Shown: positions 870 to 19,131 of the stretch, in pieces
How the letters are laid out: each line of letters opens with the position of its first letter
Numbering within the stretch: position 1 is the stretch's first letter
NCBI GenBank assembly: GCA_017437785.1
Contig: JAFRXH010000093.1
Span: 1-56,335 of the forward strand
Direction of reading: 5' to 3'
Length of the DNA stretch: 56,335 bases
Origin: Lachnospiraceae bacterium
GTDB taxonomy: Bacteria > Bacillota > Clostridia > Lachnospirales > Lachnospiraceae
Translations under genes and position numbers: made by a program
Notes under the pieces: model-generated
The model's database searches: none
The model's input: only the letters and a program-made list of their open reading frames with translations
What the model was told of the DNA's origin: nothing

Positions 870-932
870 ATCGTATTGCGATCATATTATTCGCAAGACG
901 AAGGATTAAAAAATTTTCATGGAGGAAAGAAA

Positions 933-2570
933 ATGAAGAGAAAGATCAACAGATTATTGGCAGGACTGGTTGTAATAACAATGGGTATATCCGGATATGG
1001 AAATACCTGTGTGTTTGCCGCAGATGGAAACGATCCGGTGATCGGATCGGTATCAGAGTCAGTTATTTCGGAGGAAGATCCGGAAGAAGATGAAGAAATT
1101 TGTGAAATGGAATTCATGTCTTTATCAGAAGACGATCTGGTTGATTCGGAAGAATTAAACAGGGATATAAGCGATCAGGAAGAGGTTATCCTGGAAGCTA
1201 CAGCTAATTTTACACCTCGTACTACCGCGCCTACATCAGACAATCCCTATTTCTTTAACTCAAAATATAATCCTTTCGTTGGTACCAGTTATGGACCGCC
1301 TGCTACAACTTCAAACTGCACATGGTACGCATATGGTCGTGCGAGCGAGATATTAGGCAGAAAAGCCGGATTATGTACAGCAAATGCAAGTAAATGGTAT
1401 GGCTATACAAAGGATGGATACCAAAGGGGGGATACGCCACGTCTTGGGGCAGTGGCATGCAAAAAAGGAAAAAACCATGTTGCCGTAGTAGAGGGGATCG
1501 ACTATGCCAATAATACCGTAGCATTGTCGAATTCAGCCTGGGGAGGCGACTCTTTTTATATGGTATGGAATGCCAAAGCCAGTGATTATCAATATATTTA
1601 TCTGGGGGATTTTTCCACAGATAATACTAATCCGCCCTCAATTACAAAGACAGAGATCACAGAAGTAAACCGTGTCAGCGGTTATTATAAAGTAAAGGCA
1701 ACAGTTACGGCAGAAGCCGGTCTGGACAGAGTTCAGTTTCCTACATGGACAGCATATAACGACCAGGATGATATCATATCCGATTGGGGTACATCGTCAA
1801 GAGCTAGCGGGAACGTAACAGATCTTGGGAACAATACATATTCAGCGCAGTATACAGTATATATATCCGATCATAACGGTGAGAGAGGGACTTATTATAC
1901 CCATGTTTATGCTTATGATAAGTACGGAAGGACTTCAGAAGCAGGCGGGGTGAGTGCAGATATGAATATGGAGGGTAATGCTCCTGCGATACTGTCTGCA
2001 AAAGTTACTGAAGTAAACAGAAGTGGAGGGTACTACAATGTCGTCGCAAAAGTTCACGCGGATGCGGCTCTTGATCGTATTGAATTTCCTACATGGACAG
2101 ATTATAACGGACAGGATGATCTGCCGGCAAGCTGGCCCAAAGGAACTGTAACATCACTTGGGAATAATGATTATGAAGCTACATATACAGTACATATTTC
2201 AGATCATAATAACGAAACAGGAAAGTACATTACTCATGTATATGCATTCGACTGTTACGGAAGGTATTCGAGTGCAGCTATTGAAAGTGTTAATATGAAT
2301 GAATTCCCGTCAGAGCCTAGGATCTGTGCAAAAATAAATTTACAAATTATACAATATGTGGTACCATGGTTATACGGAGGATACAACTATGGAAAACAGG
2401 ATCAAAACCATGTTACCACTATTGGACGAACGCCAGCGGCGTATATACCTTGCCGCAGAAGCCCAATCGTACGGTCGCGGAGGCATCTCCCGTGTATGCG
2501 AGATCAGCGGTGTATCAGCATTTACGATCAGACAAGGTATTGCCGAAATCAACGGCAACGAACCGCTTAA
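933..2570 (+). CDS. Secreted CHAP-domain hydrolase with GBS-Bsp-like repeats, 3' end disrupted by an IS
   Basis: The start at 933 is chosen because GGAGG lies 8 bases upstream. Residues 1-29 form a Sec signal peptide, followed by a very acidic stretch. Residues about 100-228 form a CHAP domain, with the nucleophile Cys in NCTWYAYGR (C129) and the His in NHVAVVEG (H182). CHAP enzymes are amidases or endopeptidases that cut peptidoglycan. Two repeats of about 110 residues follow (from 235 and 355), each with a FPTWT segment and a DHN...THVYA.D.YGR end, resembling GBS Bsp-like repeats. The native sequence stops at residue 462, where the insertion sequence begins at base 2319. The remaining 83 residues are read from the IS in a frame other than the transposase. 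The original C-terminus is therefore lost, but the catalytic domain is intact, so a truncated enzyme could still be made. Confidence 0.85.
   Translation: MKRKINRLLAGLVVITMGISGYGNTCVFAADGNDPVIGSVSESVISEEDPEEDEEICEMEFMSLSEDDLVDSEELNRDISDQEEVILEATANFTPRTTAPTSDNPYFFNSKYNPFVGTSYGPPATTSNCTWYAYGRASEILGRKAGLCTANASKWYGYTKDGYQRGDTPRLGAVACKKGKNHVAVVEGIDYANNTVALSNSAWGGDSFYMVWNAKASDYQYIYLGDFSTDNTNPPSITKTEITEVNRVSGYYKVKATVTAEAGLDRVQFPTWTAYNDQDDIISDWGTSSRASGNVTDLGNNTYSAQYTVYISDHNGERGTYYTHVYAYDKYGRTSEAGGVSADMNMEGNAPAILSAKVTEVNRSGGYYNVVAKVHADAALDRIEFPTWTDYNGQDDLPASWPKGTVTSLGNNDYEATYTVHISDHNNETGKYITHVYAFDCYGRYSSAAIESVNMNEFPSEPRICAKINLQIIQYVVPWLYGGYNYGKQDQNHVTTIGRTPAAYIPCRRSPIVRSRRHLPCMRDQRCISIYDQTRYCRNQRQRTA
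2319..2337 (+). repeat. Left terminal inverted repeat of the IS
   Basis: AGGATCTGTGCAAAAATAA is the exact reverse complement of 3595-3613. Confidence 0.92.
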
Positions 2571-3582
2571 AGCAACTGATCGCTTAAGGGCGCCGGGCGG
2601 CGGACGTAAAAGCCTCGAAACATCTATGCCAGATTTGGATGAACACATTCTTCAGATCGTTGACGGTAGTACATATGGCAACCCTGAGAAAGTGTTATCC
2701 TACACGACCATGAGCCTTCGCACGATCCAGCAACTGCTACATGATAATTATGACGAAGACATCAGTTTTCGCTCCGTTGGCAGCATCCTTGAAAGGCTTG
2801 GCTATAGCAAACAGACCAATCAAAAGATGCTTCAGGTTGGTGATGCACACCCTGATAGAAACGAACAGTTCGAGTTTATCGATTCCAAATCTGCTCGATT
2901 TTTGAGGCAGGGTCTGCCGGTCATTTCGGTTGACACAAAGAAAAAAGAGAACATTGGCAACTTCAAAAACAACGGGCAGGAGTACCGTAAAACCGGTGAT
3001 CCTCGTAAAGTATGGGATCACGATTTTCCAATTCCCGAACTCGGGAAGGTGGCACCATACGGCATATATGTATTAAATGACAACACCGGTTTTGTAAATC
3101 TCGGTACCGATCACGACACCGCAGAATTCGCAGCAGAAAGCATCCTGCGCTGGTGGATGTCGATCGGAAAACACACATTTCCTACAGCGGATAAAATATA
3201 TATCACCTGCGACAACGGAGGAAGCAACGGAAGCAGGCTCCGCTTGTGGAAATATGAATTACAGCAACTTGCAAATATCACTGGCCTAGAGATAAACATT
3301 TCTCATTTTCCGCCTGGCACATCGAAGTGGAACAAGATCGAGCACAGGCTATTTTGCTATATATCAAAGAACTGGCAAGGTCAACCGCTCATTGATATAG
3401 AAACTGTAGTAAATCTAATCTCCAGCACTACGACATCGAAAGGATTAAAGGTTGTATGTCAGGTTGACGATAATACATACCCGCTTAATCAGAAAGTGTC
3501 TGATGAGGAATATAATAGCATACGTCTTTTTCCGGGCAGAACTCTGGGAGATTGGAATTATATCATTAAACCACAGGCATGA
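2389..3582 (+). CDS. ISAzo13-family transposase
   Basis: The start at 2389 has GGAGG 8 bases upstream; an in-frame ATG at 2356 has none. The 397-residue protein has an N-terminal helix-turn-helix-like region (about 35-55) and then PGGGRKS, followed by an RNase-H-fold DDE domain. The segment ISVDTKKKENIGNF and later ITCDNGGSNGSR and WNKIEHR are characteristic of the ISAzo13 family and supply D182, D275 and E318 as the likely catalytic triad. It would cut and join the ends of the element. No stop or frameshift is seen, so it is probably active. Confidence 0.93.
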   Translation: MENRIKTMLPLLDERQRRIYLAAEAQSYGRGGISRVCEISGVSAFTIRQGIAEINGNEPLKATDRLRAPGGGRKSLETSMPDLDEHILQIVDGSTYGNPEKVLSYTTMSLRTIQQLLHDNYDEDISFRSVGSILERLGYSKQTNQKMLQVGDAHPDRNEQFEFIDSKSARFLRQGLPVISVDTKKKENIGNFKNNGQEYRKTGDPRKVWDHDFPIPELGKVAPYGIYVLNDNTGFVNLGTDHDTAEFAAESILRWWMSIGKHTFPTADKIYITCDNGGSNGSRLRLWKYELQQLANITGLEINISHFPPGTSKWNKIEHRLFCYISKNWQGQPLIDIETVVNLISSTTTSKGLKVVCQVDDNTYPLNQKVSDEEYNSIRLFPGRTLGDWNYIIKPQA

Positions 3583-3594
3583 TTTTGTGTAATA

Positions 3595-3613
3595 TTATTT
3601 TTGCACAGATCCT
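3595..3613 (-). repeat. Right terminal inverted repeat of the IS
   Basis: This is the exact reverse complement of the left end at 2319-2337. Beyond the perfect 19 bp, similarity continues with a shared TTACA.A.. pattern. Confidence 0.92.
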
Positions 3614-3624
3614 TACGTTACTTT

Positions 3625-3656
3625 GCGGCATTTCCGGATGGAAGTGCCGCTTTTTT
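3625..3656 (+). terminator. Rho-independent terminator between the IS and the toxin-like gene
   Basis: GCGGCATTTCC (3625-3635) pairs with GGAAGTGCCGC (3640-3650, one G-U) around GGAT, followed by six T. It was probably the terminator of the CHAP gene before the IS landed. It ends only about 14 bases before the SD of the next gene, so that gene cannot have its own promoter downstream of the hairpin. Confidence 0.85.
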
Positions 3657-3680
3657 ATAAAAAAGCTGAAGGAGGACACT

Positions 3681-4991
3681 ATGTCTCATTTTTATGTTAA
3701 GGCTGATAGATTGAATTCTAATTCGGCTATTTTGGAGCGTTATTCTATTTCATTAAATAATTATGCAGATGAGATCAGAGGTGTGGACCTTTCAAGTCTT
3801 TCGGATTCTATTGAAGAGCGTATACGACGGACTGTCATGGCTTTGGGGGGATCCACTGAATGGGGCGCACAGGTAATGAAGAGTATGGCCTTAGGGCTTG
3901 ATGGCATCTTTGGATTATATCGTGATACAGAGTACCGTCTGTTGGGGAAGGAAACAGAGAATGGTGACTTGGGTGATTTGGTTGGTGGACTTTTGGGAGA
4001 ATTAGAAGCCAGCGGTGTAGATACTACTGTTTGTTGGGACACTGAAGGCAGGAGATTGTTAACGAATACATCAGATGAAGATATGGATGCGTTAATAGAA
4101 GAATTTGAGAATGAGCATCCATCTGTTGGTGAAGAATTTAACAGATTCTTAGCGACAGATAATAATGGTTTGCTTTCCGAAGATGATATAAGAAACATTA
4201 AGTATTTGGTATATACTGCACCTGAGCCATACAGATCAATATTTCTTTCTAATCTGGATAGTTTTTTGATACATAATATCCAAGAGTTTACAGGGGCAGA
4301 TAATGGTAAGGCTTATTTTAGTACGTGGTTATTTAACTCTGGTCTTACATATGATTACCCTGATAGTTTTGGCGGGGACCCTCGGGGGCCATATACGACC
4401 TTTTTTCATGAATGTGGCCATTCGATAGATTATTATGCTGATCAGTCAAATGATTGGGGATATGAAACCGGAAACTATAGATATTATAGTTCGGGTATGG
4501 GAAGAAACGTGACACTATGGGATACAATAGAACATGATGTATATTATAATACGAATAATCCGCATAGTGTTGTTAGTATAGCAAAAGGTATTATAGATAG
4601 TGGTGGCGCGGGTTCGGGTGGAAATGTGGACCATGTGATAGATGCACTTCGTATTAACAATACAGGGGAATTATGTGGAGAGGATCTATTACTGTATAAC
4701 GCTATTTGTAATGAGCAAAGGAGCAATATAGGCTCTAATCCTCCATTTGAGGCTGTTTCTGATGTTTATGGAGGGGTAACACATAATGCTTTTCGATTTG
4801 GATATGGTCATGATAATAGCTATTGGGCATTTGGGCCTTATAAGCCTGCGGCAAAAGAATTGTGGGCTGAGTTTTTTGCATATAATATGGCTAGAGACGA
4901 TGAAGCATTGGCTAATTTGAGGGAATACTTTCCAGAATCAGCGGCACTGTTTGATGATTATGTGAATAATTATGAGTGGTCTTATGAGTAA
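3681..4991 (+). CDS. Putative secreted zinc metallopeptidase toxin with a WXG100/LXG-like N-terminal domain
   Basis: The start at 3681 has GGAGG (3671-3675) just upstream; the longer open frame would begin inside the IS. The 436-residue protein has no signal peptide. Residues 1-90 are predicted mostly helical and end in an LYRDTEYRLLG segment, like the helical domains that guide type VII-type substrates. The C-terminal part contains HECGHSIDYYA (H243, E244, H247), a gluzincin zinc site, and KELWAEFFA (E397 as third ligand), followed by an acidic helical tail. The HExGHxxDxYA plus AEFFA layout is reminiscent of the anthrax lethal factor catalytic domain. The link is from motifs only and the target is unknown. 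The gene is clearly AT-richer than the flanking chromosome, suggesting transfer. A lipoprotein gene follows 11 bases downstream. Confidence 0.7.
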   Translation: MSHFYVKADRLNSNSAILERYSISLNNYADEIRGVDLSSLSDSIEERIRRTVMALGGSTEWGAQVMKSMALGLDGIFGLYRDTEYRLLGKETENGDLGDLVGGLLGELEASGVDTTVCWDTEGRRLLTNTSDEDMDALIEEFENEHPSVGEEFNRFLATDNNGLLSEDDIRNIKYLVYTAPEPYRSIFLSNLDSFLIHNIQEFTGADNGKAYFSTWLFNSGLTYDYPDSFGGDPRGPYTTFFHECGHSIDYYADQSNDWGYETGNYRYYSSGMGRNVTLWDTIEHDVYYNTNNPHSVVSIAKGIIDSGGAGSGGNVDHVIDALRINNTGELCGEDLLLYNAICNEQRSNIGSNPPFEAVSDVYGGVTHNAFRFGYGHDNSYWAFGPYKPAAKELWAEFFAYNMARDDEALANLREYFPESAALFDDYVNNYEWSYE

Positions 4992-5002
4992 GGAGCTTTT
5001 CT

Positions 5003-5728
5003 ATGAAGAAAATGATTAGATATTGTGTGATTACTATTTGTCTATGTGGAATTCTTACGAGTTGTACAAGAAGGGATTACACAGATTATACGGAGGAAGA
5101 GAATATGGAAAGAATTGATAATATAGAAGAGCAGAATAATGAAGAGATGGATTACAGATCGCTTGATGATAGAGAGTATCTGATTAAAATGTATGGTTTT
5201 ACTTTGGAAGAACTTGAAGGAATGGATATAGAATGGTTGAATCAAAAGGCACATTTTAGGGATTCCGGAATGAGTGTTGAGAGGGTAAGGGAATGGGTAG
5301 ATGCAGATAAACCGTATGCTTCCGATACATACAAAGATACGTATTTATTTCTTACCGCGCAGCCTAATATTGATATACCGCAGGGGACAAAAGTAAAAAA
5401 GATTGGTTTTTATTATAATCCCGGGACATTTGTTCAAAGATCTGTTTTTGATATCGAAAACAAGGTGTTTTATGTTGATGATGATATAGAGCATCAGTTA
5501 GATGAGGATCTTAGTGCTGTTGTAGATGAATATAATATATACGATTGGAATACGGAGAATTTAAGCAGGAAACTTGGCTCTACCGGTTCTTATGGATGGA
5601 AACTTGTATTTGTGGCAGAAGATGAGCATAAATATGTATACGAAGGCTTTACGCAGGATGGATCGGCGATTCCTGATGGTTATACAGAGCTTAGCAATAA
5701 GCTGATTGATATCATAAAGAGCCGTTAG
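5003..5728 (+). CDS. Lipoprotein of unknown function, possible immunity partner
   Basis: The SD AAGGAG lies at 4989-4994, overlapping the end of the toxin-like gene, so the two are probably co-transcribed. The 241-residue product has a lipoprotein signal ending in ILTSC (Cys21), so the mature protein should be anchored on the outer face of the membrane. A very acidic linker (about 24-55) and a soluble domain of about 180 residues follow, with no family I recognise. Position directly after a putative secreted metallopeptidase, the same AT-rich composition and surface anchoring would fit an immunity or accessory protein. That role is an inference from context only. Confidence 0.65.
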   Translation: MKKMIRYCVITICLCGILTSCTRRDYTDYTEEENMERIDNIEEQNNEEMDYRSLDDREYLIKMYGFTLEELEGMDIEWLNQKAHFRDSGMSVERVREWVDADKPYASDTYKDTYLFLTAQPNIDIPQGTKVKKIGFYYNPGTFVQRSVFDIENKVFYVDDDIEHQLDEDLSAVVDEYNIYDWNTENLSRKLGSTGSYGWKLVFVAEDEHKYVYEGFTQDGSAIPDGYTELSNKLIDIIKSR

Positions 5729-7181: not shown

Positions 7182-7216
7182 CTTGTTATAAAAGCAAAAA
7201 TATGGGAGGGAAAACA

Positions 7217-10200
7217 ATGAGAAGAAAAGGGATCGGAAACAGGGTAGCATCATTAATGCTGTCTGCGCTGCTTCTGGCATCGGAGGCCGGCGGCACAGGC
7301 ATGCAGCTGTATGCGGCAGAGCCATCCGGAGATGAAGCGACGGAGGCAGTATCGGAAGATGAAGCAGATGAAGCAGCTGTATCTGAAAACGAAGCAGACG
7401 AGTCAGCTGCGTCGGAGAATGAATGCCCGGAAGAGAGTGTATCGGAAGATGAGGCCGGCGTGGATGCATGGGATTATCTTTCTTCAGCCGACGGGAGCAT
7501 GAACGCGGACTTACGCGCTAAAGCAGATCCGTCTGTTCACGAGGAGGAAGATACAGGGGCAATAAACTATACCAAAACCATCAATGCCAGCAGCTTAAAT
7601 ACAAACGGTAAGCTGACACTTACAGAGAATACCAGGCTGGTAATGGATACCAACCTGACACTGGCAAAAATATCGGGCGAGAAGTACGCCCTGTGTGTTG
7701 AAGGCAGCGGCAAGCTGAGTGTTCGCGGTGAAAGTCCGGCTATCTATACCAAGAGTCTGGAACTGTATACCGATGCATATTTTAATTCCAGCAAGGGGAC
7801 CAAGTTCACTGCGGTATTTGATGATACACTGGCAGTTTACAGCGGCAAGCTGGAGCTATATGGCGGAGCGGGCGCATGGGCAAGCGGCGGTATACAGATC
7901 GATTCGGAGGTCTATGGAGAGTGTGCAGATACCGCTGCACTCATATCGAGTAAGGATATCTATATCAGCAAAACAGCTAAGGTTCATGCGGTAGGCGGAC
8001 GCGATGAAGACTGTGATTTTCGCTTTGGTATAGGCGCCGGAGAAAACCTCGTTATAGAAAAAGGAAGCGAGGTCTATGCGGACGGCACATACGGTATTTA
8101 TTCCCAGAGCGGTAATATATTCTTATATGGCGATGTGGAGGCTGCCGGAGAAGACTATGGTATTTACGCCATGGGTGATGAGGGCGGCGGAAGCGTATTT
8201 ATTGATATGCCAATTGAGCTTAATACTACGGCAACCGACGGATACGGTATATGGGCTCTTAATAAGATAGATATCAAGAGCGGTGTATACGCAAAGGGGC
8301 CGGATGGTGCACTTTGGTCAAAAAAAGGTTCGCTGGACCCGGCTGCGAATAACATGACGGTTGTCGTGCCTCAGGGCGGCAGGGTAAGGGATGATAAGAA
8401 GACAATCGTTACATCTGCCGGTAAAGTAGCTACGGAAGTTAAACTGCAGCGCCTGCTTACGGGCGGAGTGACATATACTTCGACGATAAGATATGGTGCC
8501 GAGATAAGTCTGGGAAGGACCGGAGAGCTGGGAAAGGTTGATGAGGACAGGCTCCATTATCAATGGGAGATCAGTAAGGACCTGAACGGATGGAATAAGA
8601 TAAGCGGCGCAACCCGGGATGCATATATGCCACAGGCATCTCAGGTGGGAATGTATATACGCGTTTGTGTGACTGCAGACGGATATTTGGGCACTATATA
8701 CAGCGATCCGAAAGTAATATCAAAACGCAGGCGTGAGGATATGCCGCAAATGCCTTCGTGCACCTGTTCTGCGGATTACAAGACATTGACTGTAACTGAT
8801 GCAAAGGCTGAGCAGGAGTATGTTTTAACAGATTCGTATAACGTCGATGGCAACAGCAGTGTATGGAAAAATGCCAAGTCGCCCGCAAAGGACGGCAGCT
8901 TAAGCTTTAGCACCAATCCCGGTGTTTTATATTACATTCATACCAGATATAAGGCCGGTGATACGGATGAAGCGGGTACAAAGATCATATACAGATCGGT
9001 ATATACCGGAAGTTCAAAGAGCCCTAAATACCTGGAACTGGACAAAAAGAGTTTCAGTACCAAAGTGGGAGAAGTGACAGAGCTGACAGTGAAACCTGTT
9101 CCTGCGGATGTGGAGGGCTGGAATGCCTATGAACTGTATTGGTTTGTAAACGGTACGGGAGTCGATATTTATCAGGACAAGGCATGCACTAAAAAGGTTC
9201 CGTTAAGCAGTACTCTCGTTCCCTATAAAACGGTATACGTAAAAGGAACAAGCCAGACAAGATCCGTGGAGGTAGGTGTAGAGAAACAGGTTGGATATGC
9301 GGAGCTGATCCATGACAGCTGTTTTGTGACGGTTGCGGACGCCAAAGGCAATTATGTGCTGGACCACCTTAAGTTTGAGAAGCTGATACTGACTCCGGGT
9401 GAAGAGTGTGAGACAGAGTTTACTACGTCTCCGGACCCGGCAACGGTGGGAACTCTTTCCTTTGTGATCCCGGCAAGTGCTCCGGCTTTTAAGATCACTT
9501 CCGAAGGAGGACGGAAGGTAAAGATAAAGGTGCCGGAAAACGCCAAGACAGGGAATTATTCTGTGTCGGTTAAGGTAAACGGAAAGGATACCCCTTCGGT
9601 TTCTTACATTGATATAACTATAAGCGAGAAGAAGATGATATCCGTGAATTTTAATGCCAATGGCGGAAGCGGATATATGGCACCGGTTGCGATACAGCCG
9701 GATACTGACTATATTCTGCCGGAATGCATTTTTAATGCACCGGGTGAGAAGGTGTTTGCAGGCTGGGATAAGGGACAGCCGGGAGAGATAGTACATTTAT
9801 CGGATAATGTAACGCTTAAGGCGCAGTGGACCGATCATCAGCACAGCATCAGAAAGATGGAAGCCAATGAGCCGGGATGTACCACGGAAGGTAATATCGA
9901 ATGCTACATATGTATCGCCTGCGGTAAATATTTTTCTGATGCTCAGGGTAAGAATGAACTGGCCGAGAACAAGGTGGTGATACCTCCGGCCGGACATAAG
10001 CTGAGTCAGGTTAAAGCTGTGGATGCCGGCTGTGAGAATGATGGACAGGAAGCATATTATGAATGCAGCAAATGCAGCAGATGCTTCTATGATAATAAGG
10101 GTAATGATCCCGTATATGATAAGACTGCGCTTATCATCCCGGCTAAGGGGCATGACTGGAGTGCATGGAAGACAGAAAAGGAAGCCGGCGATTATGAAGC

Positions 10201-11767
10201 GGGACTCAGATCCAGGACCTGCAAGAGGTGTGCAAAGGTTGAATATGAGGAGATCCCCCCGCTCAAGGCAGAAGAGTTTCTGATTAAATTTGCCGATGGC
10301 AGCATAAAGATGAACTCCGAGGGCGCATACGAAGCAGAGTATACCGGTGATGAGATAAAGCCGAATGTGATCGTCAAACATAACGGGATAGCACTGGTGG
10401 AGAGCAGGGATTATACGCTCAAATATACAAAGAATAAGAAGGCCGGAAGCCTGGCAAAGGTCACCGTCAGCGGAAAGGGACGTTATTCAAAGAGTGCAAA
10501 GCTTGAGTATAAGATAGTTCCTAAAGATGTAGCAGCTCTGGAAGTGGGTAACCTGATAGTTAAAGATGGCCAGAAGGCCGATCCCACACTGATCCATAAC
10601 GGCAATATGCTTAAGGAAAACAAGGATTACAGCCTGCAGCAGACAGGATCCGATCTGACCATAAGCGGAATGGGCAATTATACCGGAAGCGTTACAGTGA
10701 AGCTTACCGAAGTGGAAGCTACCGATTATACCAATCGCCTTATAAATGTGAAGCTTAATAAGACAGATAAAGTATATGACGGTAATGATAAGTACCTGAC
10801 ACTTGAGGAACTTGTGGTCACCGATAAGGATGGGAAAGAGCTTATCCCGGGGACGGATTATGTCGTGTGCTATTCAAATAACATAGACGCCGGCATGGTG
10901 AGAGTAACAGTTACGGGTGCGGGCAAGTATGTGGGTAAGGCTAAGAAAAGCTTCAAGATCAAGCCTGCAAAGGATGCCAATATAACTGTAAAATTTGATA
11001 AACCATCCTATACATATAAAAAGAGCGGAGTAAAGCCTGAACTTACCGTAATAGCCGAAACAGGATATACCACCACGCTGCTTTATGAAGGCAGGGATTA
11101 TAAGCTGAGCTACAGCTCAAATAAGAAAGCGGGCGAAGGTAAATTTGCGATAAACTTCCGCGGGAACTTTAAAGGCGCTAAGTACAGCGGCAGCAAGAGC
11201 TTTACGATAGAGCCTGCCAGACCTTCAGCCGGGAATGTTACTGTTATCGCAGGCGATATGCCTTATAAGAAGGCGGGCAGATATAAGCCAAAGGCGTGGG
11301 TCATAGTAAACGGAAGCCTGCTCTCAAAGTCTGATGTTAAACTTGAGTATGCGGAGGAAAAACTGACGGAAGCAAAGACCGGGCTTAAGATAAACATATC
11401 TTCAGCAGGTGGAAATTATGAGTTCAGCGGTGCTGAAGGCATATATAACGTAGTTGCATCGGAAAAGACCGATGTCAGCAAGGCTAAAGTAAGCTTTATG
11501 CAGGGCAGCAATAAGATAAAGAAGATGCAGTACAGCGGCAGTGCTATCGTATTTTCATCCGCAAAGCCCGATGCTCCGCAGATAAGCGTGAAAGTGGGAG
11601 ATAAAGTTATAAGCGGTGCGGAAGTAGAGAAGAACTTCTATATCATATACGCGGATAATGTTGAGAAAGGCAGGGCTACCGTGATACTTAAGGCGAAGGA
11701 AACTTCGGATTATATCGGTGCCTGTGCCGGAAGCTTTAATATAGTCAGTTATCCGATCCACAGATAA
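7217..11767 (+). CDS. Very large secreted repeat protein (beta-helix-like, Listeria-type repeat, Cys-pair and Ig-like modules)
   Basis: The start at 7217 is 6 bases after GGAGGG; an ATG at 7202 overlaps that SD. The 1,516-residue protein begins with a signal peptide ending near YAAEPS. An acidic low-complexity segment made of SEDEADE / SENEADE copies follows (about 35-75). Residues about 105-390 are rich in short beta-strand repeats of the type seen in right-handed beta-helix surface proteins. Near 808 lies a Listeria/Bacteroides-type repeat (VNFNANGGSG ... AGWDKG ... LKAQW). Residues about 885-1005 contain three cysteine-pair units (CYICIACGKYF, CSKCSRCFY, CKRCAKVEY). The last 500 residues are Ig-like repeats of 80-100 residues with DYTLKYTKNKKAG-like turns. 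There is no LPXTG or C-terminal membrane anchor, so it is probably secreted or held non-covalently on the wall. Its role is unknown; adhesion is a guess. Confidence 0.8.
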   Translation: MRRKGIGNRVASLMLSALLLASEAGGTGMQLYAAEPSGDEATEAVSEDEADEAAVSENEADESAASENECPEESVSEDEAGVDAWDYLSSADGSMNADLRAKADPSVHEEEDTGAINYTKTINASSLNTNGKLTLTENTRLVMDTNLTLAKISGEKYALCVEGSGKLSVRGESPAIYTKSLELYTDAYFNSSKGTKFTAVFDDTLAVYSGKLELYGGAGAWASGGIQIDSEVYGECADTAALISSKDIYISKTAKVHAVGGRDEDCDFRFGIGAGENLVIEKGSEVYADGTYGIYSQSGNIFLYGDVEAAGEDYGIYAMGDEGGGSVFIDMPIELNTTATDGYGIWALNKIDIKSGVYAKGPDGALWSKKGSLDPAANNMTVVVPQGGRVRDDKKTIVTSAGKVATEVKLQRLLTGGVTYTSTIRYGAEISLGRTGELGKVDEDRLHYQWEISKDLNGWNKISGATRDAYMPQASQVGMYIRVCVTADGYLGTIYSDPKVISKRRREDMPQMPSCTCSADYKTLTVTDAKAEQEYVLTDSYNVDGNSSVWKNAKSPAKDGSLSFSTNPGVLYYIHTRYKAGDTDEAGTKIIYRSVYTGSSKSPKYLELDKKSFSTKVGEVTELTVKPVPADVEGWNAYELYWFVNGTGVDIYQDKACTKKVPLSSTLVPYKTVYVKGTSQTRSVEVGVEKQVGYAELIHDSCFVTVADAKGNYVLDHLKFEKLILTPGEECETEFTTSPDPATVGTLSFVIPASAPAFKITSEGGRKVKIKVPENAKTGNYSVSVKVNGKDTPSVSYIDITISEKKMISVNFNANGGSGYMAPVAIQPDTDYILPECIFNAPGEKVFAGWDKGQPGEIVHLSDNVTLKAQWTDHQHSIRKMEANEPGCTTEGNIECYICIACGKYFSDAQGKNELAENKVVIPPAGHKLSQVKAVDAGCENDGQEAYYECSKCSRCFYDNKGNDPVYDKTALIIPAKGHDWSAWKTEKEAGDYEAGLRSRTCKRCAKVEYEEIPPLKAEEFLIKFADGSIKMNSEGAYEAEYTGDEIKPNVIVKHNGIALVESRDYTLKYTKNKKAGSLAKVTVSGKGRYSKSAKLEYKIVPKDVAALEVGNLIVKDGQKADPTLIHNGNMLKENKDYSLQQTGSDLTISGMGNYTGSVTVKLTEVEATDYTNRLINVKLNKTDKVYDGNDKYLTLEELVVTDKDGKELIPGTDYVVCYSNNIDAGMVRVTVTGAGKYVGKAKKSFKIKPAKDANITVKFDKPSYTYKKSGVKPELTVIAETGYTTTLLYEGRDYKLSYSSNKKAGEGKFAINFRGNFKGAKYSGSKSFTIEPARPSAGNVTVIAGDMPYKKAGRYKPKAWVIVNGSLLSKSDVKLEYAEEKLTEAKTGLKINISSAGGNYEFSGAEGIYNVVASEKTDVSKAKVSFMQGSNKIKKMQYSGSAIVFSSAKPDAPQISVKVGDKVISGAEVEKNFYIIYADNVEKGRATVILKAKETSDYIGACAGSFNIVSYPIHR

Positions 11768-11776
11768 GCTTTTCCG

Positions 11777-11804
11777 GGGCGGTGGTTTCCACCGCCCTTT
11801 TTTT
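11777..11804 (+). terminator. Rho-independent terminator after the large repeat protein
   Basis: GGGCGGTGG (11777-11785), loop TTT, CCACCGCCC (11789-11797), then seven T. It overlaps the first unit of the tandem repeat below. Confidence 0.92.
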
Positions 11805-11902
11805 ATGATCACATTGTTTCACAACCACCGGCCTAGCCGGTGGTTTCCACCGCCCTTTTTTGTGATCACATTGTTTCGCAACCACCGGCTTAGCCGGTGG
11901 TT
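11789..11902 (+). repeat. Two tandem ~58-bp units carrying nested hairpins
   Basis: A unit beginning CCACCGCCCTTTTTT occurs at 11789 and again at 11847, differing at only a few positions. Each unit holds a T-run, TGATCACATTGTTTC, and a perfect stem ACCACCGGC / GCCGGTGGT. The result is a stack of GC hairpins, some followed by T-runs, between the two large surface-protein genes. Confidence 0.85.
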
Positions 11903-11909
11903 GTGATTG

Positions 11910-11938
11910 TTGTATTTCTGATGCATATATAGTATAAT
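11910..11938 (+). promoter_or_regulatory. Promoter of the second large surface protein gene
   Basis: TTGTAT (11910-11915), a 17-base spacer, TATAAT (11933-11938). The transcript would start near 11945, giving a short leader to the ATG at 11982. Confidence 0.78.
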
Positions 11939-11981
11939 AATCCGCTGAAACATATCACAATAAACAAGGAGGTAAGTGTTT

Positions 11982-14900
11982 ATGCACAAGTTTTATACCC
12001 GTAGAAAAAAACTTGCGCGTAAAGCGGCTGCATTCATGAGTGCGGTTATGCTTTTTTCCTCCGAAGCCGGAGTTTTCATGCAGGACATGGCATATGTGTC
12101 AGCTGCTGATGATGAGGCAGAGGGTGGAGATGTGCAGGCAGAGGAAACACCGGAAGATAAGGGCGCTGTTACAACAGCAACTGACGGTGCTTTCACGGTA
12201 ACAGCAGGCGAGCTTCAGTACGGTGAGGACGGAAGCAATGCAAACGGCAACCTGGATGCGATCTTCGCACCCGAACTGACTGTTGACGGAGTAAAGAAGG
12301 TACTTGGTACTGATTACACCGTAAGCTATAAGTTCTTTACCGATAAGGCAGCAGCCGAAGCCGTAACAAAGGAGAATTTTGATGAAGCAGAAGGCGTAGA
12401 GCTGGCTTCGGTCAACGCCGGAACAGAGATCTATGCGGTGGTAAAGGCAGCAGCTGCTGATACCGACTATCTGGTAAGCCTTCAGCTGAGTATAGCAAAG
12501 CGTCTTGTAAGCGTAAGCTATAAGGGCTCTGCAGATGCAGCTATCGAGGGCCGCGATGTGGCAGAGGACGGCAGCTATGTGATCGCAGCGGAAGATGTCG
12601 ACTATAGCGGCTTTGACTTAAGCTTTGCGGATGGTTTTGTTTATACGGCAGATGCAAGTGCACTTTTTAGCGGTGATATCACACTTGATCTGTCCGCAGT
12701 GGATCTGTCGGAAGACAGCTTCAGTAATGTACCTATGGAAGTAGAGCTTGATCCTGCGTTTGACGATAATTACGAGCTGGACAAGAACATCCATGGTGAT
12801 TACTACATAGTAAAGGCACAGTATTATGTAGTGTTTGCTGCAAATAATAACGGAGAGACTTTCATGCAGACCTATGCATTCCCTTCCTATGATTATAAGG
12901 GTACTGCAGCAGAGCTGCTTGATAAGCTGGGCAAGACTGATGAGGTATTGAGCAAGGAAGACGGTGCTTATAACCTTAACGGTTTCCTTGATCCCACTAC
13001 CGATACCCTGGTAGGCTGGACTGCTTATATTGACGGTTTCAATGCAAGCAAGGCACGTGCTCTGTCAGATTATAAAAGTTCTGACTCTTATTCCACGATC
13101 AACGTGAATGCGGATGCATCCACCTATGAGGAGTACAGTAACGGCAAGAAGCTTGAGCTTAACGGCAGGAGAGATTATCTCTTTGTTGCACAGATAAGCA
13201 AGGCAGCAGCTGATAATATTTATGTATCAGTTATCCCTTCGGTATTCTATGATGCGCGTGCGCATGTGGCTCTTGGCAGCAAGACCAAGCGCAACAAGGA
13301 AATGGCTGATCTGCGAGTTAAGGTTAATTATTCCATGAGCGGTGAGCAGAGCGGTGTAGAATATTATACCGAGCTGCGTAACGGTACCGATTATACGCTG
13401 GAATACTTTAACAATACCGATGCATCCATGGCGGTAAGTGAAAATGGTACATATGTGCCTGTAAAAACCGGCGAAGCGCGTCCTCATGTAAAGATCACAG
13501 GCAAGGGCAGATATGCCGGCTTTGAAGCAACAGTGTATTTTGATATACTTCCGACTAATCTGGGTGCCAGCGAGTGGACTTATGAATATCTGCACGAAAA
13601 AGACAGCACATATATCGATGGCCACAATTATTACGGTGAGGATTATCCTTATACCTACACCGGATCAAATAAGGCTGATTTCTATGGTATCAATAAAGCA
13701 ACATATTTATTAAAGAAGGGTAAAGTAAGTGGTATAAACCCCAGGGTAACAAAGCACTTCTATTCGTATGGCTACGATAGAGATTACAGAAGGACCAGTA
13801 ATTATACTTATGCATACTTAGATCTGGTAAAGGGCAAGGATTACCAGCTTGAACTGTATAAGTGGAATACAGAGGGAAGCTGTTGGGAGTTAGTTGAAGG
13901 TGTTACCGACCCCAACAAGCTTACCGAAGCAGGTGACTACCTCGTCCTTGTAAGAGGTATGGGCAACTATTGCGGCGCAGTATATGGCAGTGGTGAGAAT
14001 GTTTTTGCAAGCGGTAAGGATACCGAAGGATACACCAATCCGCCTCATGACCTTTCTAACGGACATCAGTTCCGTATTGCGGACAGTATGGATTATGATC
14101 TGTCTACCGCAAGCATAAGTATAGGCGTAAAGAGTGTTAACTGGGACGGCAATATGCGTGATTCCGCAAGCTTTAATATCGTGGTAAAGGATAAGAAAAA
14201 GAATGTGCTTACGGAAGGTATTGATTATCATGTTGATTTCGTGCCTAAGTACGCAAACCGTAACGGTGCTTACGGCGGTCAGAAGATCAGTGCGTCAAAT
14301 AAATACACCGTACGGATCGTTGGGATCGGTGATTACTATAATTCCAAGCAGGGCGGTAAAGTCACGATCAAGGGAAGCAAACTCAACAAGAAGTGGTTTG
14401 AACTGAGTGGCACTTCCATTGTCCTGACTGAGGCAGGTATCAGCGCCGGCTTGACTATGAGCGATCAGAGCGATCCCAAGTTTGTTGGCTATTATACAAA
14501 GACGAGCGGCAGTAACAGAAAGGTGATCGCAGGCGGTATGAGGTATACTTATTCAACCTACAGCGGTGACAGCTACAGCGGCGAAGCTTTTGAGCCTACA
14601 TCCAGTGTAAAGTTCAGCATCAAGACAGCTAAAGTTAAGAAGATGAAGCTGGCCGATGCCATAAAGAACGGCTATATCCGCTTTACCGTATCCGATAACG
14701 GCGTATATAATGTTAAGGGTGCTGTTCCGGATAGCATTAAATATGAAACGGGCAAGTATAGTAGTGGAACCTTTAGTGACTATGATCTTTACGATGGATG
14801 GACCTGTGGCTTTAGCGTATATGAACCCGATAGTACCAGTTCTATTGGTAATGTTACTCTGAAGTTTAGCTTTAAGAACAATAAAAAAGTCGGACAGAAA

Positions 14901-15647
14901 GCTGAGGTTACGGCAAAGGTAATAAACAGCGATATCCTGACAGGCAGCGCAAAGATAGGAAACTTTACGGTAAGCACAAAGAACGTGAAAACTGTAGGGG
15001 ATTATCATTATATGCCGGATGTTTATGATATGGCAACTTCTGAGGTATTTGCCATTGTGACCGATGAGCTTAAGTCAAAGGGCAGGCTGGATAAGCCTAA
15101 TGTAAAGCTTTATCAGGTATACCGCGATAAGAATGGCATCAAACATGCAGCAGCTCTTAATGCAAAGCAGTACAAAGTAATTGCCGGAGAAGAGCTGGGT
15201 ACCAATCATATAGCTGTATCCACTTATGCTGTAAACGGTACTGCAGCAGGATTCAACTTTGATCCCGGATATGAATCTCCCGGAGCATATGTAGGTATCT
15301 ATGCATTATATAATGCAGAACTGAAACCTGCTGATATAAAGGCGGTTAACATAAGCGGGCTTGAGCAGGAAATAGCAGTAAATAACGGTGTGATCGATAA
15401 TTCGTATGCACCTGTATTTACCGGAGTGTCCATTACTCCTTTCGTGGATAAGGTTAAGGCTGCCAATGCAGAGCTTGATTATGAGGCTGATTATGAGCTT
15501 TGGTTTGGTGATAATACTGCAGCAGGCGATAAGAGCGGCATGATATTTGTCAATCCGAGATATAACAAGGCTTTGGATACTTATGAGTATGGCGGTTCTG
15601 CTATGATCAACTTTAAGATAACACCCGCAGACGCTATCAGACTGTAA
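11982..15647 (+). CDS. Large secreted protein with Ig-like/repeat modules, function unknown
   Basis: The ATG at 11982 is 9 bases after AAGGAGG. The 1,221-residue product begins with a basic stretch (YTRRKKLARK), a hydrophobic core and a cleavage region near SAADD. Its pattern SSEAG...MQ resembles the signal peptide of the gene upstream (SEAGGTGMQ). The body is mostly beta-strand-rich, with many short motifs of the type GTDYTLEYFNN and ITGKGRYAG, which also occur in the upstream protein (YTLKYTKN, VSGKGRYSK). Repeats of this module type are therefore shared. There is no sortase motif, transmembrane segment or catalytic motif that I recognise. It probably acts outside the cell, possibly as an adhesin or matrix component; this is inferred. 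A strong terminator follows. Confidence 0.78.
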   Translation: MHKFYTRRKKLARKAAAFMSAVMLFSSEAGVFMQDMAYVSAADDEAEGGDVQAEETPEDKGAVTTATDGAFTVTAGELQYGEDGSNANGNLDAIFAPELTVDGVKKVLGTDYTVSYKFFTDKAAAEAVTKENFDEAEGVELASVNAGTEIYAVVKAAAADTDYLVSLQLSIAKRLVSVSYKGSADAAIEGRDVAEDGSYVIAAEDVDYSGFDLSFADGFVYTADASALFSGDITLDLSAVDLSEDSFSNVPMEVELDPAFDDNYELDKNIHGDYYIVKAQYYVVFAANNNGETFMQTYAFPSYDYKGTAAELLDKLGKTDEVLSKEDGAYNLNGFLDPTTDTLVGWTAYIDGFNASKARALSDYKSSDSYSTINVNADASTYEEYSNGKKLELNGRRDYLFVAQISKAAADNIYVSVIPSVFYDARAHVALGSKTKRNKEMADLRVKVNYSMSGEQSGVEYYTELRNGTDYTLEYFNNTDASMAVSENGTYVPVKTGEARPHVKITGKGRYAGFEATVYFDILPTNLGASEWTYEYLHEKDSTYIDGHNYYGEDYPYTYTGSNKADFYGINKATYLLKKGKVSGINPRVTKHFYSYGYDRDYRRTSNYTYAYLDLVKGKDYQLELYKWNTEGSCWELVEGVTDPNKLTEAGDYLVLVRGMGNYCGAVYGSGENVFASGKDTEGYTNPPHDLSNGHQFRIADSMDYDLSTASISIGVKSVNWDGNMRDSASFNIVVKDKKKNVLTEGIDYHVDFVPKYANRNGAYGGQKISASNKYTVRIVGIGDYYNSKQGGKVTIKGSKLNKKWFELSGTSIVLTEAGISAGLTMSDQSDPKFVGYYTKTSGSNRKVIAGGMRYTYSTYSGDSYSGEAFEPTSSVKFSIKTAKVKKMKLADAIKNGYIRFTVSDNGVYNVKGAVPDSIKYETGKYSSGTFSDYDLYDGWTCGFSVYEPDSTSSIGNVTLKFSFKNNKKVGQKAEVTAKVINSDILTGSAKIGNFTVSTKNVKTVGDYHYMPDVYDMATSEVFAIVTDELKSKGRLDKPNVKLYQVYRDKNGIKHAAALNAKQYKVIAGEELGTNHIAVSTYAVNGTAAGFNFDPGYESPGAYVGIYALYNAELKPADIKAVNISGLEQEIAVNNGVIDNSYAPVFTGVSITPFVDKVKAANAELDYEADYELWFGDNTAAGDKSGMIFVNPRYNKALDTYEYGGSAMINFKITPADAIRL

Positions 15648-15794: not shown

Positions 15795-18545
15795 ATGAAA
15801 CGCAGAAAAGTTTTGGCTATGCTCATGACTGCTGTGATGACATTCACTTCCGTAGCACCGCAGACCGCACTGGTCGCAAATGCAGAGGATGGTGAAGAAG
15901 ATGTAGTCGTAGAAGAGCTTCCCTTTGACCTTAAGGGTATGCCCGATGGTTACACACTGAGCGAAGAGCAGCTTGAGATGAAGGCTGCAATGAAGGAACA
16001 TGACGTACTTGGCACATTTGCCGGATTGACCGAAGGTGTTGATTATGAGGAAGGTACTGTTATCTTCCTTGCAGAGACCGAGGAAGAGGCACAGGCAGTT
16101 GCGGAGGCATACAATTCAGAGCTTGTACGCTTTGAGTACGGTGTAGCGGTTGCAAAGCTTCCCGAGACACTTACCGTAGAGCAGGCACTTACCGTAGCTG
16201 AGGATCCGGCATATCTTATGCCGGTTGTAGCACCCAACTACATAAGCTACCTTATTGATGATGCAGATGAAAGTGTTGAAGATTTTGATCTGGGTGAGTT
16301 TGAGTCCGAGACCATGGCAGCTACAGAGGCTCATAAGTCTGCCTGGGAATCATTTGTACAGGGCGGAAAGCTTGCAAATCCCGATCCTTATATTAAGAAT
16401 CCCGCGATATCCGAATATCAGTGGATGCATGACATGATAGGAACCTATGAAGCATGGGGCGCAAACATGGGTAAGGCAGAGATCACAGTAGCTGTCCTTG
16501 ATACAGGCGTTCTTCCTGATCATCCCGATCTGAAGGGAAGAGTAACCCAGGTTCCCGTAAGTGATATCCCTGTTACCCTTTATACCAGTGATCACGGCAC
16601 CCATGTAGCAGGTATAATCGGCGCAAGTGCCGGTAACGGTCAGGGCGGTGCAGGTATCGCACCCAATGTGAGCATCAGATCTTATGGTGTGTTCAGATAT
16701 TTTGGCACCGGTTCCAATAAGTCTGCCGGTTCAGATGATGCTGACTGGCTGATCGCACTGGGTGATTGTGCAGCCAATAAGGTGCCCATTGCAAATATGA
16801 GTCTTGGCGGCCCCAGCTATAGTCCTGTAACTCAGCAGAAGATTAAGCAGATAGCAAACCAGGGCGTTAATATTATAGTAGCAATGGGAAATGACGGATC
16901 TAACTTAAAGTCTTATCCTGCTTGCTATGACGGAGTTATTTCCGTGTCATCCATTAATCCCTCAGGAAAGGCTTCAAGCTTCACAACCTATGGTAAGGAT
17001 GCTGATATCTGCGCGCCCGGAAGCCATATAATGAGCTGTGATAATCCTAAGGCAGATGATTATAAAAAAGAAAATGCAGATTCTACCGGATATTATACTA
17101 TAATGAGCGGTACTTCAATGGCTACTCCCGTGGTTGCCGGTGTATGCGCACTCTATATGAGCCAGTACGGCGTACAGAAGCCCGCAGATATGCTTAAGAT
17201 CCTTCAGAAGAATGCCAACAAGACATCTTCCAAGCAGATCGGAAAGATCGTAAATGTAAGCAAGATGTTTGCATCAGGAGCAAAGGCAAAGGCTAAGAGC
17301 GATGATAACAAGGTGTTTACCTTTGATATCGAGGGTGCGGATGAAGGTGCATATGTAGTATATACCACAGACGGAACGGAGCCTGCACTTGTTGACGGAC
17401 AGATCTTTAACGGCAAGGTATTTGAAGGCGCTGTAGAGTTTGATCAGACTCAGAGTGTTGTAGTAGTTAAATCTATCGTTGTTACTGCAAGCGGAGAGAT
17501 CGGTGATGTTGAGACAGCAAGCTTTGCTGTATCCGATAAGAACGAAGGTGAGATCGTAGGCGCTAAGGCAGCTCCCATTGCTGTATCTGGCGATAACAAC
17601 AGAGTTGCAAATAACAGTGCACGTATTTATACCACTAATGTAGCACAGACTGCATTTGATGATACTCAGATCACACTTACTGCTCCTTCAAGCGTTAAGT
17701 GGAGTGTAAGCAAAAAGGATGCAAAGGTTGTTGAGGTAGTGACTGCAGAGGGCAATTCTACCGTTATAAAGGCGATTAAGACCGGTAAGGCTACCGTTAA
17801 TGCAGTAGCAGCAGACGGAAGCAAGGCAAAGGTCAAGATCGAGGTTATCGTACCCGCTTCAAGCATAAACATCACTCCTGATGGAAATGCCGGTGGTGAC
17901 TCTGCAGGACAGATCGCTATAGGCAAGAGTAAGACCGTAGAGCTGGTTCTTGGTAATACTTACGGAACTCCCAGCGTAAAGAACGTTGAATGGGACTTCC
18001 AGCTTCCCAATGGCAAGACGGAAGCTGCTAAGAACAGCAAGGCAGTTAAGATAAGCAACAAAGGAAAGCTCAGCATCAATAAGAAGAACTGGGCAAAGGC
18101 AGGTTTACCTTCGGAAACAAGCATACTTGTTACAGCTAAGACTACCGACGGAACCAATCTTTCAGCTACAGCTGTATATCAGGTATGGGAGCCGGCTAAG
18201 GAATTTACTTCTTGTATCTTAAATGCTAATACAGGTATGATCGGTAATATCGGAGCGAAGAATATCAGGATTACCGGTAACTGGTATAACAATGATAGCG
18301 GAACATATCGTATGTATATGGGTGTCATCACCGATAAGAAGATTACACGTAAAACCGATATCACCATCACGAGCAGCAATCCCAGTTTTGCAGGAGCTAA
18401 ATTTGCCGGTATGGATACGTACAACGGTAAATATGTATACTTCTACTATGTATTTGCCGGTGAAAAGAGCAAGGGCAAGGCTAAGATCACACTTACCTTA
18501 AATGATGGCAGCAAGAAGAAGGCAGCTATAACCTTCAGTCATTGA
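15795..18545 (+). CDS. Secreted subtilisin-family (S8) serine protease
   Basis: AAGGAGG lies about 8 bases before the ATG. Residues 1-30 form a signal peptide. The pro-region (about 31-205) contains an inhibitor-I9-like segment TEEEAQAVAEAYNSE ... YGVAV. The catalytic domain runs from about 206 to 490, with the triad D236 (VAVLDTGV), H267 (SDHGTHVAG) and S441 (SGTSMATP) and the oxyanion Asn N366. All key residues are present, so it should be active. C-terminal modules follow: a chitobiase/hexosaminidase-like segment (VYTTDGTEP, about 515-570), a bacterial Ig-like (Big_2) domain (about 610-690) and further beta-rich domains to 916. There is no wall-anchor motif. It may process neighbouring surface proteins; that is inferred from position. 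The lipoprotein gene downstream carries a copy of the pro-region motif. Confidence 0.95.
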   Translation: MKRRKVLAMLMTAVMTFTSVAPQTALVANAEDGEEDVVVEELPFDLKGMPDGYTLSEEQLEMKAAMKEHDVLGTFAGLTEGVDYEEGTVIFLAETEEEAQAVAEAYNSELVRFEYGVAVAKLPETLTVEQALTVAEDPAYLMPVVAPNYISYLIDDADESVEDFDLGEFESETMAATEAHKSAWESFVQGGKLANPDPYIKNPAISEYQWMHDMIGTYEAWGANMGKAEITVAVLDTGVLPDHPDLKGRVTQVPVSDIPVTLYTSDHGTHVAGIIGASAGNGQGGAGIAPNVSIRSYGVFRYFGTGSNKSAGSDDADWLIALGDCAANKVPIANMSLGGPSYSPVTQQKIKQIANQGVNIIVAMGNDGSNLKSYPACYDGVISVSSINPSGKASSFTTYGKDADICAPGSHIMSCDNPKADDYKKENADSTGYYTIMSGTSMATPVVAGVCALYMSQYGVQKPADMLKILQKNANKTSSKQIGKIVNVSKMFASGAKAKAKSDDNKVFTFDIEGADEGAYVVYTTDGTEPALVDGQIFNGKVFEGAVEFDQTQSVVVVKSIVVTASGEIGDVETASFAVSDKNEGEIVGAKAAPIAVSGDNNRVANNSARIYTTNVAQTAFDDTQITLTAPSSVKWSVSKKDAKVVEVVTAEGNSTVIKAIKTGKATVNAVAADGSKAKVKIEVIVPASSINITPDGNAGGDSAGQIAIGKSKTVELVLGNTYGTPSVKNVEWDFQLPNGKTEAAKNSKAVKISNKGKLSINKKNWAKAGLPSETSILVTAKTTDGTNLSATAVYQVWEPAKEFTSCILNANTGMIGNIGAKNIRITGNWYNNDSGTYRMYMGVITDKKITRKTDITITSSNPSFAGAKFAGMDTYNGKYVYFYYVFAGEKSKGKAKITLTLNDGSKKKAAITFSH

Positions 18546-18578
18546 CAGGTAAGGCGCTAAACAGAGTTAGTTTTCAAA

Positions 18579-18605
18579 ACCGGTGGCGAAAGCCGCCGGT
18601 TTTTG
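18579..18605 (+). terminator. Rho-independent terminator after the protease gene
   Basis: ACCGGTGGC (18579-18587), GAAA tetraloop, GCCGCCGGT (18592-18600), then TTTTG. The stem has one G-U pair. A TATAAT at 18607-18612 lies just beyond it and may serve the next gene, though its -35 is poor. Confidence 0.88.
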
Positions 18606-18633
18606 TTATAATAATGCTGAAGGGAGGTGTGTT

Positions 18634-19131
18634 ATGAAAAAGTCTTTTTTGCTGGTCAGTACATTTATTTTATCGGCTGCATTGCTCACGGCCTGTGGAG
18701 AGGTAAAGGTTGATACAGGCAGCAGCACGGGGGAAGTAAATGTGGATGAGAACGGATCGGGGCCTGACGATGATAGAGGCAGGCTGGTTGATGACAAAGG
18801 AGATAATGAAGTGGGATCAGGAGATATCAGCGGAAGTATCGTACCGGCTGTTTCGGGTAATATATCGCCGGTTGAGGATGAAGAGAAAGAAGTTGAAGTG
18901 CAGAGCACTTCAAGCAGCAATGAGTCAAAAGGCAGGGAGCTTATGGCCATAGTCTCTTCTGCTGAAGAAGCTCAGGAGATAGCAAAGCTGTACGGGATAG
19001 AGCTCCTGGAAGAACAATATGGTGTGGCTGTGTACCATACCGATGAGGATCCGTCTGAAGTGGTTAAGCGTGGTATTGATAACGGCTGGCCGCCGATAGG
19101 CATAAACCACACAAGCCAGCTTATTGATTAG
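18634..19131 (+). CDS. Lipoprotein with a protease pro-region (I9-like) domain, putative inhibitor of the adjacent subtilase
   Basis: The start has GGGAGG 7 bases upstream. A lipoprotein signal ends in ALLTAC (Cys21). Residues about 22-100 form an acidic, Gly/Ser-rich, probably disordered stalk. Residues 101-165 match the pro-region of the neighbouring protease: EEAQEIAKLYGIELLEEQYG aligns with the protease segment starting EEAQ at residue 97. The distance from EEAQ to YGVAV is 18 residues in both, and both regions end S.LID. Pro-regions of this type fold onto the protease and act as inhibitor and folding helper. A membrane-tethered copy could protect the cell surface or help the secreted protease fold. 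The similarity is seen directly; the inhibitory role is inferred. Confidence 0.8.
   Translation: MKKSFLLVSTFILSAALLTACGEVKVDTGSSTGEVNVDENGSGPDDDRGRLVDDKGDNEVGSGDISGSIVPAVSGNISPVEDEEKEVEVQSTSSSNESKGRELMAIVSSAEEAQEIAKLYGIELLEEQYGVAVYHTDEDPSEVVKRGIDNGWPPIGINHTSQLID

Follow-up and report, generated by a model that had tools for sequence, protein, structure and literature searches.

Why would a lineage of anaerobes keep an extra, separate and membrane-tethered propeptide next to a protease that has retained one of its own? Propeptides are known as parts of the enzyme that help it to fold and hold its activity in check. The question is raised by a 56,335-nucleotide stretch of DNA from a Lachnospiraceae bacterium (contig JAFRXH010000093.1; "the window" means this whole stretch), in which the gene of a secreted S8 subtilase is followed by that of a small lipoprotein, here called the partner, which ends in a propeptide-like domain. 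We propose, with a probability of roughly one half, that the partner is a putative tethered propeptide mimic that works with the neighbouring protease mainly as its cognate inhibitor. The locus offers a natural system in which to ask whether bacteria can use the propeptide fold as a permanent inhibitor fixed in one place, and it also bears on how an enzyme and its brake stay matched while they diverge.

A propeptide-like domain in a lipoprotein

The initial annotation had described a secreted subtilase paired with a membrane-anchored copy of its own pro-region. As an observation this is confirmed: both genes lie at the positions given for them, the stretch from EEAQ to YGVAV, counted as 18 residues in both proteins, runs from residue 111 to 129 in the lipoprotein and from 97 to 115 in the protease, and an S-x-LID motif closes both the partner domain and the pro-region. 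The lipoprotein matches the protease with an E-value of 1e-05 in BLASTP, and its domain reaches a Smith-Waterman score of 70, which none of 5000 shuffles attains (best shuffle score 57 against protease residues 26-215, and 63 against the whole protease). A transposase, the best of the unrelated frames in the window, reaches 59, and the pair alone thus represents modest to moderate evidence. Profile comparison with hhalign aligns 10 lipoprotein domains with 10 pro-regions at a probability of 98.5 and an E-value of 2.3e-15, and 15 partner domains with 13 pro-regions at an E-value of 2.9e-13; when other genomes are searched with the lipoprotein profile, pro-regions appear among the matches (for example at E 3.5e-13). 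Searches of Pfam, NCBIfam and PDB sequences with the partner or the pro-region returned nothing usable, and no Inhibitor_I9 match was found in Pfam for protease and partner (E up to 10) or for 15 partner domains (E up to 1). Judged from these alignments, the last ~65 residues of the lipoprotein are homologous to S8 pro-regions, a likeness that is secure once relatives are included.

The protease carries a Peptidase_S8 domain (PF00082, residues 229-477, E 5.7e-44) followed by an Fn3_assoc domain (residues 512-576, E 4e-05). Its S8 motifs are intact, with the catalytic-motif Asp, His, Asn and Ser invariant across 13 aligned proteases, and inspection by eye revealed neither a lipobox nor an LPxTG motif. 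We modelled the pro and catalytic parts with AlphaFold2 (AF2) from 13 sequences (predicted local distance difference test score, pLDDT, 80.7; predicted template modelling score, pTM, 0.85), with the pro-region blocks mostly above 90. In this model the core of the pro-region (residues 84-152) adopts a beta-alpha-beta-beta-alpha-beta order. Structures similar to the model include fervidolysin (1r6v, E 5e-20) and unprocessed pro-subtilisin E (3whi_B), the latter with a template modelling (TM) score of 0.78 on the target over 421 alignment columns for a target of 355 residues, in a match table that gives no alignment ranges. These matches to whole pro-subtilisins suggest that the modelled propeptide docks on the catalytic domain in the usual way.

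In the partner, an LTAC lipobox (residues 18-21) places a Cys after the hydrophobic signal stretch, as scored with a simple lipobox pattern, and an acidic linker of ~66-79 residues leads to the C-terminal domain. The AF2 model of residues 95-165, built from 15 sequences, has a pLDDT of 84.8 and a pTM of 0.71, with the tail below 50. Its strands at model positions 8-12, 29-34 and 37-41, its helices at 16-26 and 46-56 and a last strand of two residues follow the same element order as the pro-region, the last strand being short and the tail uncertain. The top Foldseek match of this model is 3wqb_B, the ORF2 protein in complex with an Aeromonas protease (E 0.043, probability 1.00, TM 0.63), and further matches include 1spb_P (probability 0.92, E 0.14) and 9fid_E (probability 0.96, E 0.23); the prosegment of subtilisin BPN' and a furin-bound prodomain are among these further matches.

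Pairing and descent of the two genes

We defined a partner as a small gene, coding for fewer than 260 residues as called, that matches the lipoprotein profile. With the lipoprotein alone as query, 9 of 35 genomes of the genus match; the wider profile locates small partner genes in those same nine genomes, at 10 places. Pro-regions with E below 1e-40 occur in these nine genomes, and a tenth holds a distant kind only. A scan of named genomes gave 14 partner loci, one of them in Acetanaerobacterium elongatum; every locus but this one comes from a record titled Lachnospiraceae, and several loci of the window's genus are from the rumen. In the family, a first search matched 5 of 299 genomes (four besides that of the window) and a second, run with the wider profile, matched 10 of 397, adding three partner loci outside the profile, all of which adjoin an S8 protease with this pro-region type. 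At least 2 of 391 genomes match in a class-wide sample, both of the family, and at least 1 of 398 in a phylum-wide sample, the window's own; in both samples at most 15 candidates per genome were scored, so that misses are possible.

The initial annotation had set conserved gene pairing as a check, and the pairing is found throughout: a pro-region of this type lies on the same strand at all 22 partner loci, directly adjacent at 19 of them and in either gene order (protease first at 8, partner first at 14). Among the first 19 loci, including the window, 16 are directly adjacent and three have two genes between. The catalytic domain is seen at 20 of the 22 loci, the proteases of L030 and L036 being cut by contig ends after the pro-region. 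A strong hairpin stands between the genes, as called, in five of the seven protease-first loci of the genus. In the window, a scan placed a terminator-like element at 18584-18598 between the protease and partner genes and called no plus-strand promoter there; that the partner gene has its own promoter is a guess.

The membrane tether described for the window partner recurs in its relatives: 21 of 22 partners have a recognisable anchor, lipid or helix. A lipobox is present in 16, an N-terminal helix without Cys in four (L034, L050 from a GTG start, L052 and L096) and an atypical Cys motif in one (L049). Anchors of L049, L094 and L096 were judged by eye, the others by simple pattern, with no dedicated predictor.

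Not every protease of this type has a partner. We surveyed a subset of the pro-region matches, in six regions and two contig ends, and found unpaired S8 proteases with this pro-region in partner-bearing genomes (four of ~1450-1480 residues, and one in G023) as well as in G014, a genome without a partner. The window genome holds two further such proteases cut by contig ends and one small partner gene; its truncated contig-end pro-regions (L053 and L023) were left out of the partner count. In L023, on contig C35, the second S8 protease of the same type follows FtsK/EssC-like and WXG100-like genes, as seen by eye. The unpaired proteases in partner-bearing genomes show the partner to be an extra for some of these enzymes, and it is optional among related S8 proteases.

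In a tree of 34 domains, partners and pro-regions are split by one branch with support 100/100, and the partners remain one group in a 48-row tree (100/99). This topology places the partners in one old clade, which arose from a single old split from the pro-regions. A recent duplication of the neighbour's pro-region is ruled out by the tree, and the initial annotation is right on homology but goes too far in calling the domain a copy of the neighbour's own pro-region. The pro-region of an unpaired protease from the window's own genome falls beside the partners (Shimodaira-Hasegawa-like approximate likelihood ratio test support 88). At L097 (G781, 7909-8541, minus strand), a 210-residue protein combines an N-terminal helix with a pro-region-type domain; one S8 protease is 13 bases away, and a second lies at ~1.1 kb, beyond an open reading frame (ORF) of opposite orientation. 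Its domain groups inside the pro-region side of the tree, with its exact place weakly supported. L097 may thus represent a second origin, and the tethered-mimic arrangement may have arisen more than once. At L072 (5760-13355), a 2531-residue protein with no protease match contains partner-like stretches (best 4.8e-10).

Cognate resemblance and proposed function

We compared each partner with the pro-region of its own neighbour and with those of all other loci. After one old split, no extra likeness to the own neighbour is expected, which makes a cognate excess informative, and because the partners form one clade, recent duplications do not explain it. The comparison covered 17 pairs and 37 columns; L030 and L036, with their truncated proteases, were left out of the 19 loci. 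The mean number of identities between a partner and its neighbour's pro-region is 14.65, versus 12.43 with others, a difference that none of 50000 permutations reaches. The excess is seen at the hairpin turn (2.65 identities versus 1.74; 0 of 50000) and at the end of strand 1 (2.06 versus 1.21; 9 of 50000), and helix 1 shows none in the 17 pairs (36890 of 50000). With columns 6, 7 and 27-31 removed, the remaining columns give 3944 of 50000, and the cap and tail columns taken together give 68 of 20000. When swaps are allowed only within clusters of related proteases, the turn gives 9 of 20000 and the full set of columns 87 of 20000. Adding three held-out pairs, for a total of 20, gives 0 of 50000 overall and at the turn and 1 of 50000 at the strand 1 end, where all three held-out pairs exceed their non-cognate mean. 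The propeptide of PfSUB1 fills a pocket of the catalytic domain with its hairpin turn (PMC6993865). The simplest reading of our comparison is that partner and propeptide would contact one shared surface of the protease; gene conversion over short stretches is another possible source of the excess. A cognate relation between a partner and its neighbouring protease is supported on average by these alignments. Distances between partners also correlate with those between catalytic domains (Mantel r 0.51), which co-inheritance alone would be expected to produce and which is thus not proof of contact.

We envisage that the partner domain occupies the propeptide site on the catalytic domain of the neighbouring protease, with its hairpin sitting where the propeptide hairpin sits and its C-terminal tail directed towards the active-site cleft. 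Held near the membrane, the partner could then act as a reusable cognate inhibitor, capturing protease that matures too early or diffuses back. The cell's own surface would be protected in this way, and protease away from the cell would stay active. Three considerations lead us to favour inhibition: the protease already possesses a propeptide, some related enzymes do without the partner, and many partners end near the would-be active-site residues and have no junction to cleave.

Several observations weigh against this interpretation. The three held-out pairs lack an excess at the turn (2, 2 and 1 identities versus 2.21, 1.89 and 0.95), and one of them falls below its own non-cognate mean over all columns. 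The cognate pro-region is unbeaten for only 8 of 17 partners: three non-cognate pro-regions score higher for the window partner, and all 16 do so for L034. The turn and strand 1 regions were chosen after viewing the alignment, although the all-column test was not. By Smith-Waterman score the window partner domain is closer to another S8 pro-region of the same genome (102 versus 70). The helix-capping Glu position is occupied by Glu in 3 of 17 partners and in 10 of 17 pro-regions, that of the window not among them, and partner tails vary, some being 10-20 residues longer. The Foldseek matches of the partner model are weak (none with E below 0.001) and include unrelated ferredoxin-like folds, and the L095 partner has no anchor recognisable by simple pattern or by eye.

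Tethered inhibition and its main rival, the two leading accounts, would share one step, binding at the propeptide site. In the rival, which may coexist with inhibition and which we consider possible rather than probable, the partner would be an external foldase, an anchored steric chaperone that aids folding of the protease on exit and inhibits it only momentarily. Membrane-anchored foldases exist, LipH being described as one for a lipase, and in 11 of the 19 adjacent loci the partner is the first gene, overlapping the protease in two and preceding it by 19-85 bases in nine (approximate gaps, since gene starts were taken as the first ATG). The first structural match of the partner, ORF2 of Aeromonas sobria, is likewise encoded by a bacterial gene adjoining a subtilase gene and is described as a chaperone and temporary inhibitor with its C-terminus at the catalytic site (PMC5638518). 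The accessible text, however, describes the Aeromonas protease as propeptide-deficient and mentions no anchor for ORF2, whereas the window protease keeps a full pro-region and its partner is tethered. The unpaired proteases of this type in partner-bearing genomes also speak against a foldase role. In sequence, likeness to ORF2 does not exceed chance: PF18492 (ORF_2_N) passes its cut-off in none of 13 genomes, and 5 of 14 control genomes give weak hits as well; three of six weak hits lie on pro-regions or a partner; and ORF_2_N gives weak matches to 4 of 15 members (best 0.011), a level that unrelated families also reach.

It is doubtful that the partner is a docking subunit, which would hold the protease on the surface without controlling its activity. 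The model for such a role is PrcB of the Treponema denticola dentilisin complex, a small lipoprotein from a subtilase operon that interacts with the subtilase and is needed for it; the available text mentions no propeptide fold for PrcB, and its subtilase PrtP is itself acylated (PMC8167434). Docking would suit a protease that shows no anchor of its own by eye next to a partner tethered in 21 of 22 loci, but a propeptide fold, which covers the active-site face in known cases, is an odd choice for a pure anchor, and a PrcB-family match was found in none of 15 members (E up to 1). Very improbable is the absence of any common function today, with an old duplicate persisting beside the protease by shared ancestry: ancestry is clearly shared and the Mantel correlation is what co-inheritance alone would give, but adjacency is kept through both gene orders and different anchors, and after a single old split the cognate excess is confined to parts of the domain.

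An extension of tethered inhibition, which we regard as improbable, would treat these loci as surface protease-and-immunity pairs. Immunity lipoproteins guard bacteriocin producers, and a co-evolved tethered mimic might comparably guard a cell against its own enzyme and that of its kin, and less well against the enzymes of others.

Comparison with known systems and features of the window

The statement in the initial annotation that no named system has this exact form stands in part: we found none of the exact form, and systems that work similarly, SUB1-ProM and ORF2, have been described. Our literature search, which lacked most subscription journals, returned no bacterial membrane-tethered propeptide mimic beside a propeptide-bearing protease. 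Among the closest parallels by description is Plasmodium SUB1-ProM (PMC6993865). It has a separate, propeptide-like gene within an array that also holds subtilase genes, its target SUB1 carries a propeptide too, sequence similarity is low, an Asn occupies the second helix-cap place and the C-terminal tail is variable. SUB1-ProM differs from the partner in being a eukaryotic protein of the parasitophorous vacuole for which inhibition was measured, and the two are likened here by description, not by sequence. The same source lists the stand-alone I9 inhibitors POIA1, yeast peptidase B inhibitor and Arabidopsis SPI-1, together with TgMIC5, as small propeptide-like folds that inhibit or regulate subtilases (PMC6993865); those listed are eukaryotic, and protease and partner here lack the Inhibitor_I9 match. 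Acetanaerobacterium elongatum (L037), as a named strain carrying a pair, is a possible entry to bench work.

Table 1. Positions of the protease, the partner and their elements in the window
Feature	Position	Strand	Description or basis
Secreted S8 subtilase, 916 aa	15795..18545	+	Signal peptide, pro-region, catalytic domain, then Fn3-associated region
Protease pro-region, residues 41-160	15915..16274	+	AF2 model
Pro-region hairpin-turn residues 114-117	16134..16145	+	One of two regions with excess cognate resemblance
Intergenic hairpin (terminator-like)	18573..18633	+	Followed by TATAAT-like hexamer and ribosome-binding site, by eye
Partner lipoprotein, 165 aa	18634..19131	+	Lipobox, acidic linker, C-terminal propeptide-like domain
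Partner propeptide-like domain, residues 100-165	18931..19128	+	Ends NHTSQLID; AF2 model, hhalign
Partner hairpin-turn residues 128-131	19015..19026	+	Cognate-resemblance analysis

Upstream of the protease, the window encodes two giant signal-peptide proteins (7202-15647) with no Pfam match at E up to 0.01, and at L015 a protein with a similar start also stands before the protease. Further upstream, at 3579-5728, a 470-residue ORF with the zinc-peptidase-like motif FFHECGHS and, by eye, a WXG-like N-terminal part is followed by a 241-residue lipoprotein-like ORF. Both lack a Pfam match at E up to 0.01, and they may form an effector and immunity pair. At 876-3582, a CHAP and GBS_Bsp-like protein has its end overlapped by an ISAzo13-type transposase (PF07592, E 6.5e-116), which suggests an insertion.

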